In this document: positions 6,503 through 26,987 of the stretch, one piece after another
How the letters are laid out: the number at the start of each line of letters is the position of its first letter
Numbering within the stretch: position 1 is the first letter of the stretch
Assembly: GCA_903873805.1 (NCBI GenBank)
Contig: CAIQQB010000145.1
Location: forward strand, 1 to 64,000
Source: an uncultured Opitutia bacterium
Lineage (GTDB): Bacteria; Verrucomicrobiota; Verrucomicrobiia; Opitutales; Opitutaceae
Direction: 5' to 3'
Length of the DNA stretch: 64,000 bases
The notes under the pieces: generated by a model
Told to the model about the DNA's origin: nothing
What the model saw: the letters and a program-made list of their open reading frames with translations, nothing else
Database searches by the model: none
Translations under genes and position numbers: made by a program

Positions 6503-7933
6503 ATGAAGCTGCCCCGTTTTTCCCTGCTTGTTCTGTTCGCCGCCGCCGCGGCCTCCGCCCTCGCCGCCGATATGCCCGCCCCCGTCACGCCGGCCACGGT
6601 CACTCCCGTGAATGACTTTTACGTCTATTTCGGGACGCACCGCGCCGGCGCCGGACTGGGCCTCTCGCTGGCGCATTTCAACTCCGACACCGGCGTGCTC
6701 ACCGTGCCGAAGTTTGAGGTCCAGTCCTCCGCGCCCGCCTATTTCGTCATCGGGCCGGACGGAAAACACCTCTACACCTGCAATTCCGGCGACACCTTTC
6801 TGGGGCAGCCGGGCGGCGGGGTGAGCGCGTTCGGGATCGACTCCGCCACCGGCCACCTCACGGCGCTCAACACGCGGCCGGCCGGCGGGGAGGACACCAG
6901 TTACATCAGCCTCGACCGCACCGGCCGGTTTGCCCTTGTCGCCAACTACAAGGGCGGAAATGTGGCCGTGTTTGCGCTCCAGACCGACGGCTCGCTGGGC
7001 GAGCGGACCGCCTTCGTGCAGCACACCGGCAGCAGCGTGGACCCCGTGCGCCAGACGCACGCCTTCGCGCACTCGATCATCACCGATCCGACCAACCGGT
7101 TCGCGATCGTCGCCGACCTCGGTCTCGACAAGGTCTTCGTTTACCATTTCGACGAGAAGACGGGCGCACTGACGCCCAACCAGCCCGCTTTTGTCAGCGT
7201 CAAACCCGGCTCCGGCCCGCGGCATCCGGTGTTTCATCCCAATGGGAGAATCGTCTATGTCATCAGCGAAATCGCGAGCACGGTGACGGCCTTCCATTGG
7301 GATTCCGCCCAAGGCTCGCTCGACGAATTTCAGGTCATTTCTGCTTTGCCAGCCGACTTCAAGGGCACGAGCGCCTGCGCCGAGATCGCCATCCATCCCA
7401 ACGGGAAGTTTCTTTATGCCTCGAACCGCGGCCACGACAGCCTTGCGGTTTTCGCGATTGGCGCCCGGGATGGTCGCCTCAGTCTGGTGCAGCACGCACC
7501 CAGTGGCGGACAGACCCCGCGCAACTTCGCCTTCGACCCGACGGGCCAATGGATCGTCGCCACCAACCACGGCAGCAACAATGCCGTCGTTTTTCGGGTG
7601 GACGCCACCACCGGCAAACTCACCCAGCTGGGTGAGCCGGTCAGCGTGCCTTATCCTTTCTGCGAACGGTTTTTGCCGGAGGGAGATACCATCTCAGTAT
7701 CTGGCCAAGTTCTGCACCCAGGACTGTTCAGATATATACCGAACTTGACGCTCGGTGACGCGATTAAGGCAGCAGGTGGCTTTATCCAATATCCCTTCTC
7801 CAAAAGAATCCGGATCAGGCGAATCAACAATAAAGGAGGAATGGATATACTGACGGTAAATATCCTTGATGCAAAGGGAGCAGAATTCCCATTGAAAATC
7901 GGCGACGTGATTTCCATCCCAGAGGAGGCCTAA
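6503..7933 (+). CDS. Secreted lactonase-family beta-propeller fused to an SLBB domain
   Basis: A 476-residue protein in two dissimilar parts. Residues 1-24 are a signal peptide (LLVLFAAAAASALAA). Residues about 35-390 are a seven-bladed propeller of the 6-phosphogluconolactonase-like family (YVYFGTHRAGAGLGLS, GPRHPVFHPNGRIVYV, PNGKFLYASNRG). From residue 394 (7682) the text becomes a single SLBB domain: VSGQVLHPGLFRY, LTLGDAIKAAGGF, PLKIGDVISIPEEA. SLBB domains normally occur in polysaccharide export proteins. The fused segment is clearly richer in A+T and uses AGA, AGG and ATA codons rare in neighbouring genes. I infer a recombination that replaced the natural C-terminus. Start chosen at MKLPRF with its signal peptide; a GTG lies 22 codons earlier. 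Confidence 0.8.
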   Translation: MKLPRFSLLVLFAAAAASALAADMPAPVTPATVTPVNDFYVYFGTHRAGAGLGLSLAHFNSDTGVLTVPKFEVQSSAPAYFVIGPDGKHLYTCNSGDTFLGQPGGGVSAFGIDSATGHLTALNTRPAGGEDTSYISLDRTGRFALVANYKGGNVAVFALQTDGSLGERTAFVQHTGSSVDPVRQTHAFAHSIITDPTNRFAIVADLGLDKVFVYHFDEKTGALTPNQPAFVSVKPGSGPRHPVFHPNGRIVYVISEIASTVTAFHWDSAQGSLDEFQVISALPADFKGTSACAEIAIHPNGKFLYASNRGHDSLAVFAIGARDGRLSLVQHAPSGGQTPRNFAFDPTGQWIVATNHGSNNAVVFRVDATTGKLTQLGEPVSVPYPFCERFLPEGDTISVSGQVLHPGLFRYIPNLTLGDAIKAAGGFIQYPFSKRIRIRRINNKGGMDILTVNILDAKGAEFPLKIGDVISIPEEA

Positions 7934-8042
7934 GCTCGGCCCGGGCTGGCAACACTGCAAAGGTCGTCGTCGTCACTTCCCGCTGGGCGCCCCGTCGCTC
8001 GCGCTTGACCACCGAGCAGCCCGTCAGAATCCGCGCTTGCCC

Positions 8043-8069
8043 CACGAACATGTCAACTATTGGTTGACA
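8043..8069. repeat. 27-bp repeat, left copy, with palindrome
   Basis: This copy is identical at 26 of 27 positions to 8449-8475. Its last 19 bases, TGTCAACTATTGGTTGACA, form a perfect palindrome with 7-base arms and a 5-base centre. It ends six bases before the ATG of the HTH gene, so a protein bound here would block expression of that gene. Confidence 0.85.
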
Positions 8070-8074
8070 GGACT

Positions 8075-8434
8075 ATGTACCCTAAAATTGACGGTCGGAT
8101 AGAACTTCCCCTCGAGCTGGCGGCGGTGTTGGCCCGGGCGGCGCAGACCCTGGTGGCCGACCAGCAGCGCGCGTTTCGCATCGCCCGGCGACCACGCAAG
8201 GGCGTGACGTTGCGTCCGGGAACGGACACGCCGCTCTGGAATGCCCTCGTGGTCGAGGTGCGTCCGCATCTGCGCAAATACGGCGCGCAGGCGAATCTCG
8301 GACGCGTGCTGGGTTTGGATCGGCAGACGATCAACGCCTACTTCATCACCCGCACCCGCATGCCGGACGCCGAGCGGACCCTGCAACTGCTGACTTGGCT
8401 GATCGCGACGCGCGCCGGCCAGACCCCGGGCTGA
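8075..8434 (+). CDS. Small HTH DNA-binding protein between direct repeats
   Basis: A 119-residue basic protein. Its C-terminal half, RKYGAQANLGRVLGLDRQTINAYF...MPDAERTLQLLTWL, reads as a lambda-repressor-like helix-turn-helix with a terminal helix. The N-terminal half (LAAVLARAAQTLVADQQRAF) is helical with no recognised domain. The start is the ATG of MYPKIDG; a TTG five codons earlier lies inside the palindrome. Near-identical 27-bp repeats flank the gene on both sides, which suggests autoregulation or a small mobile unit. No named family is assigned. Confidence 0.65.
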   Translation: MYPKIDGRIELPLELAAVLARAAQTLVADQQRAFRIARRPRKGVTLRPGTDTPLWNALVVEVRPHLRKYGAQANLGRVLGLDRQTINAYFITRTRMPDAERTLQLLTWLIATRAGQTPG

Positions 8435-8448
8435 GGCGAAGGGGGTAG

Positions 8449-8475
8449 CACGAACACGTCAACTATTGGTTGACA
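8449..8475. repeat. 27-bp repeat, right copy, with palindrome
   Basis: The second copy begins 15 bases after the HTH gene's stop codon. The one difference from the left copy (C for T) shortens the palindrome arms to 6 bases, GTCAAC/GTTGAC. The two copies are in direct orientation, 406 bases apart start to start. The 310-base stretch between the HTH gene and the next gene holds this copy and a REP-like pair, and otherwise nothing I recognise. Confidence 0.85.
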
Positions 8476-8576
8476 TGTTGGTGGGGACGGGGCGCGTTTA
8501 TTTTTCACGTAGGGATGGAGGGGAACGTCCGGGTAGGCGTTTCTGGAGGGACTGAAGCAACGGGCCTTGGATCGGT

Positions 8577-8649
8577 TGTAGCCGGGGTCGCCGACCCCGG
8601 GGGTTGCCGTTGGATGTTCAAGGCACCGGGGTCAGCGACCCCGGCTACA
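8577..8649. repeat. REP-like inverted pair, family A copy 1
   Basis: Left arm 8577-8600 starts TGTAGCCGGGGTCGCCGACC. The right arm 8626-8649 is its reverse complement at 23 of 24 positions. Each arm can fold alone (CCGGGGTC/GACCCCGG), and each carries GTAG at its foot. The layout matches paired REP elements. Two more copies lie at 9039 and 26914. Confidence 0.8.
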
Positions 8650-9038: not shown

Positions 9039-9135
9039 TGTAGCCGGGGTCGCTGACTCCGGGGATTGAAGTTCGGAATTCCAATGCACCGGGGTCAGCC
9101 GCCGAGGCTGCCGCACTCGTCGCGACCCCGGCTAC
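9039..9135. repeat. REP-like inverted pair, family A copy 2, with 24-base insertion
   Basis: Left arm 9039-9062 matches the family. The right arm starts at 9089 as CCGGGGTCAG but is interrupted at 9099-9122 by 24 bases containing CGAG/CTCG. It resumes at 9123 as CGACCCCGGCTACA. The other copies lack this interruption, so the 24 bases were gained within one arm. Confidence 0.75.
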
Positions 9136-26913: not shown

Positions 26914-26987
26914 TGTAGCCGGGGTCGCTGACCCCGGGGATTGAGGATCGGCTAACCCAATCCCCGGGGTCAGCGACCCCGGCTACA
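26914..26987. repeat. REP-like inverted pair, family A copy 3 (perfect)
   Basis: Arms 26914-26942 and 26959-26987 are perfect reverse complements over 29 bases with a 16-base spacer. Each arm begins at GTAG and folds on its own as CCGGGGTC-GCT-GACCCCGG. It follows the permease gene. Confidence 0.88.

Follow-up and report, generated by a model that had tools for sequence, protein, structure and literature searches.

What is a small DNA-binding gene doing between two nearly identical palindromic repeats? The question is raised by a locus in the window, the 64,000-nucleotide stretch of DNA from an uncultured Opitutia bacterium that was analysed here. Two copies of a 27-bp direct repeat, located at 8043-8069 and 8449-8475 and differing at a single base, enclose a gene for a helix-turn-helix (HTH) protein (Table 1). 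The left copy lies 5 bases before the ATG and the right copy 14 bases after the stop codon. About 1.5e-4 such 27-mer pairs are expected by chance for the window size and GC content, and the bracketing reported in the first-pass annotation is real. That annotation also described a palindrome common to both copies. A shared palindrome is present, but the right copy starts with CGTCAAC and not TGTCAAC, so the exact common palindrome is GTCAACTATTGGTTGAC. Both repeats are portions of a longer 39-bp palindrome with the consensus CCCACGAACATGTCAACTATTGGTTGACATGTTCGTGGG. At 6503-7933, the window has an ORF that combines a seven-bladed lactonase domain with an SLBB domain at the C-terminus; this is either a fusion of an uncommon kind or a junction of genes or of the assembly.

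Table 1. Positions of the HTH gene and its flanking repeats in the window.
Feature	Position	Strand	Description
Left palindromic repeat	8041..8069	+	Outer arm CCCACGAACAT; core GTCAACTATTGGTTGAC at 8052-8068; gene-side outer arm absent
HTH gene, 119 aa	8075..8434	+	ATG 8075, TGA 8434
Right palindromic repeat	8447..8485	+	Almost the full 39-bp element; core GTCAACTATTGGTTGAC at 8458-8474

The source genome, a 3.78-Mb draft with a single copy of the HTH gene, contains GTCAAC-N5-GTTGAC 28 times, compared with 0 for the reversed-pattern control. About 11 further sites are gained when one mismatch to a more restricted version of this pattern is allowed. Most of the copies are embedded in the 39-bp palindrome CCCAC[G/T]AACAYGTCAACTATTGGTTGACRTGTT[C/A]GTGGG, and the two repeats of the window are members of this genome-wide family. 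As judged by codon-scored gene calls, 24 of the 26 copies outside the window lie between predicted genes, 1 lies inside a predicted gene and 1 is at a contig edge. The source-genome sites are mostly singlets and show no bias toward 3' ends. Selection for hairpins in this genome was considered and dropped, since pairing covariation between the arms of its copies showed no excess over shuffles. GTAG-type REP palindromes of the RAYT kind (GTAGCCGGGGTC...GACCCCGGCTAC) also occur in the window, at 8578-8648, 9040-9135 and 26915-26986, and are distinct from the HTH-associated palindromes.

Of 150 Opitutaceae genomes sampled, 72 gave a match to the gene, the copy number per genome ranging from 0 to 8, and 54 homologous loci were taken from GTDB genomes titled Opitutaceae, Opitutia/Opitutae or Verrucomicrobia taxa. 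Whether homologues are flanked by the palindrome was a check proposed in the first-pass annotation, and its outcome was clearly positive. Among 65 homologues, an AAT/ATT-centred palindrome was located at most 200 bp upstream in 52, at most 250 bp downstream in 45, on both sides in 41 and on either side in 56; shuffled flanks yielded one in 0.46% per side. The remaining 9 of the 65, nearly one in seven, had no AAT/ATT-centred palindrome by this test. The arms vary among homologues (GTCAAC, GTCACT, GTCACC, GTCACG, GTAACG, GTTCG, GTCCG, TGCCG, TTCATC and others), and at each single gene the upstream and downstream arms match. Paralogues in the same genome have distinct palindromes: the three genes of genome G141 are of the GTCAAC, GTAACG and GTCATC types, and those of G092 have several palindrome types. 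The two ends are frequently in inverted orientation (AAT/ATT). No neighbouring gene was recurrent across 68 loci. One GTCAAC-type homologue (L237, G059:C74) has a broken frame and undetermined bases, and 19 GTCAAC palindromes persist in its genome, G059.

The gene and the palindromes also occur together across genomes, although the p values that follow overstate independence because the genomes are related and the counts are uncorrected for phylogeny: GTCAACTAWTAGTTGAC was found in 15 of the 150 genomes, all 15 of them gene-positive (Fisher p=7e-6), and the 24 genomes with at least 10 copies of GTCACNTAWTANGTGAC were all gene-positive (p=2e-9). At any copy number, GTCACNTAWTANGTGAC was found in 47/72 gene-positive versus 14/78 gene-negative genomes, and the 14 gene-negative genomes carry 1-9 GTCAC-type sites.

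The protein has a predicted XRE/Cro-like HTH in its C-terminal half and a long N-terminal helix. In the AlphaFold2 model (mean pLDDT 80.6), the HTH helices span residues 71-79 and 83-90, and residues 84-85 fall in the second (recognition) helix. The better Foldseek matches were mostly XRE-type proteins, all with E of at least 0.001. No named family in Pfam, NCBIfam or PHROGs scored above the cut-off for this protein, and a Pfam YdaS match falls under it. Pfam searches with the 54 homologues gave weak matches, mostly to HTH families, and the HUH/Y1 domain (Y1_Tnp) was absent from all of them.

We compared protein alignment columns with arm positions by mutual information in a set of 61 proteins below 75% identity. 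Relative to shuffles in which relatedness among the proteins is uncorrected, the z scores were 15.0 for residue 85 with arm position 5, 14.3 and 13.7 for residue 84 with positions 3 and 4, and 13.6 for residue 95 with position 6. These three residues are in or adjoin the recognition helix. Arg95 pairs with C6 in 23/23 cases, Gln84 with A4 in 55/56 and Arg85 with C5 in 50/56. Parsimony counts 15 changes for residue 95 and 17 for arm position 6, so more than one split underlies the link between them. Among independent tip pairs, those that are different at position 6 also differ at residue 95 in 8 of 12 cases, versus 5 of 25 for those alike at position 6. Because the flanking palindromes match, paralogues have their own types, and the arms covary with these residues, the protein very probably binds its own palindromes. 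As read from sequence, there is good support for protein and palindrome as cognate partners, and our confidence in this is high.

The arrangement of the palindromes differs between genomes. In G046, 26 of the 30 sites form 13 adjacent pairs, all inverted and 42-44 bp apart, and several pairs at separate loci have a closely similar 25-bp spacer with differing outer flanks. Doublets were also found in G006, which has both orientations, and in G034. The source genome and the genomes of genus g17 have mostly singlets. Pairs in G135 (L286-L291) are mostly 65-67 bp apart with AT-rich spacers that are not conserved, and the near-constant distance suggests a spacing constraint. In the sister genomes G087 and G150, sites that align keep their position; in two cases, a doublet of one sister corresponds to a single palindrome of the other, so that one member has been lost or gained. 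The sisters also show a single compensatory change and a single loop flip; these are anecdotes, which template-switch repair could explain. In three g17 genomes (G085, G124 and G141), which are about 80% identical, some sites are common and others are missing at the orthologous place, a rough estimate in that regions were picked around sites. At one orthologous intergenic spot (L176 ~2372, L205 ~8350), the palindrome of G124 is of the GTCAAC type, and those of G141 are of the GTAACG type. Of 92 classified sites, 3 fall in predicted coding DNA. The orthologous loci examined showed neither an empty site with clean junctions nor a target duplication, and no insertion boundary could be called there because site-less spots differ by broader indels.

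Taken together, we lean toward the explanation that the palindromes are REP/REPIN-like repeats with a dedicated XRE-like HTH partner encoded between two of them. The target of the protein, which would presumably bind as a dimer, would be the dyad GTCAAC-TATTG-GTTGAC of 17 bp; this dyad flanks the gene on both sides and recurs about 26-37 times elsewhere in the genome. These palindromes would form an intergenic repeat population, and the embedded gene would supply its cognate binding factor. The upstream site, judged solely by its position next to the ATG, makes self-repression plausible. In the least certain step, the protein may help to keep, spread or tame the repeats; as no catalytic domain can be recognised in it, enzymes of host replication or repair would presumably act with it. 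That the protein itself acts in the spread of the repeats is speculation and, in our view, somewhat doubtful. The main evidence counter to the repeat reading is that the g17 copies are alike over a core of just 17-21 bp, that the comparisons caught no insertion event and that arm covariation in the source genome is at shuffle level. The homologues that lack a palindrome, the GTCAC-type sites of 14 gene-negative genomes, and the source-genome sites as singlets free of a 3'-end bias also count against it.

An ordinary autoregulated transcription factor with its regulon, whose palindromes are operators co-evolving as in other repressor families, would likewise account for an HTH protein with strong residue-base covariation. 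It would also fit the upstream palindrome, whose centre is 14-17 bp from the ATG in most of the GTCAAC clade, and some sites that stay in place at about 80% identity. Copies in G085, G124 and G141 are alike over about 17-21 bp only, with unrelated flanks beyond these exact cores, a pattern that would also be explained by selection on binding sites instead of copying of elements. The placement of the sites argues otherwise. Convergent gaps in the three g17 genomes hold 28 sites (10 expected) and divergent gaps 4 (18 expected; p=3e-10); the source genome has no convergent or divergent gap bias. The fixed-spacing inverted doublets with a common spacer, and the 39-bp arms outside the HTH core that are common to source-genome copies, also speak against operators. 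The first-pass annotation had suggested that the second site could control the next promoter. This found no support: the nearest predicted gene to the right of the HTH gene is convergent and the downstream site is a regular component of the unit in many homologues. We consider a plain regulon unlikely, and a REP/REPIN-like repeat population is probably the better fit of the two.

The same annotation had raised a small cassette moving as repeat-gene-repeat, in which the gene travels with both palindromes and solo palindromes are remnants. The often inverted ends and the variable number of gene copies per genome are in its favour, and recombination of the direct repeats of the window would be predicted to yield one complete 39-bp palindrome. 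Several findings speak against this idea: some homologue groups are syntenic between relatives, the orthologous loci examined gave no clean empty site, and the source genome has one gene versus about 28-39 palindromes. No transposase or recombinase was found in the gene-palindrome unit, and none was recurrent beside it. Phage or plasmid origin was rejected, as no relatives were found in the phage and plasmid collections. We regard such a cassette as quite improbable. Ordinary REPs moved by RAYT/IS200-type transposases, with the HTH gene as a bystander, would agree with the GTAG-type REPs of the window and with the Y1 transposase genes of the source genome (8 matches) and of 15 of 17 other genomes tested. 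The two palindrome-bearing genomes G046 (84% complete) and G023, with 30 and 36 exact sites, had no Y1 match. Five source-genome Y1 loci that were examined are not flanked by the palindrome as the HTH gene is, and two of them have a palindrome about 1 kb off. A bystander gene would neither covary with the palindrome nor bear it on both sides, and we regard this alternative as highly improbable. A chromosome organiser with a logic like ParB-parS, Noc or MatP, that is, a site-specific binder with dispersed sites, is very unlikely too. Up to 73 exact short sites are dispersed in a genome, and their positions on two complete chromosomes (G020 and G063) are consistent with a uniform spread. This spread is unlike that of the origin- or terminus-biased parS or matS, some genomes have fixed-spacing doublets, and about half of the family genomes sampled gave no match to the gene, so it is not an essential gene in general.

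REPINs are inverted REP doublets linked to RAYT transposases (PMC3116915), and co-evolution with their own REPs has been described for TnpA-REP proteins (PMC8266576). Like these, the Opitutaceae palindromes are short, multi-copy and mostly intergenic repeats, and the gene lies between copies of the repeat that belongs to it. A genome can have several repeat families that are each paired with a separate protein, and protein-repeat co-evolution is a further likeness (PMC3116915, PMC8266576). Inverted doublets of the REPIN form, with fixed spacing, occur in some genomes (G046, where separate loci have a similar spacer as in REPINs; partly G135, G006 and G034), and singlets prevail in the source genome and in g17. 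The transposase that defines REP/REPIN-RAYT systems is missing: the partner here, an XRE-like HTH protein of 120 aa, lacks the HUH/Y1 domain, and recognition appears to involve a double-stranded dyad read by the recognition helix. The palindromes also have no GTAG or CGTC tag: the source-genome element ends in CCCAC...GTGGG, and the three g17 genomes have no common tag. CGTC-tagged REPs, for which no transposase gene flanked by CGTC units was found (PMC3733652), are likewise families of palindromic repeats for which no dedicated transposase is known, but they have another sequence tag, and in Opitutaceae a dedicated gene sits between the repeats.

Autoregulated XRE/Cro repressors such as phage repressors, C proteins and YdaS-like proteins share with our protein an operator-like dyad by the start codon of their own gene, and their HTH fold is like the one modelled for it. 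In contrast to them, the Opitutaceae sites lie on both sides of the gene, dozens of repeat copies occur elsewhere, and the protein of the window scores under the Pfam cut-offs. Unlike in ParB-parS, the sites in G020 and G063 are not concentrated in one chromosome region. In the open-licence literature we found no description of this pairing of an HTH gene with palindromes. We tentatively propose, as an outcome still less probable than its alternatives together, a new class of repeat system in Opitutaceae, in which a dedicated non-transposase HTH protein maintains or spreads palindromes via host replication or repair, with a readable recognition code diversified into many orthogonal pairs. The many natural pairs offer a ready-made candidate code of residues 84, 85 and 95 versus arm positions 4, 5 and 6. 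The REP/REPIN systems that we found described with a known partner rely on a tyrosine transposase; repeats with a small HTH protein as their only dedicated partner would, if this reading is true, represent another way of keeping or spreading repeats.
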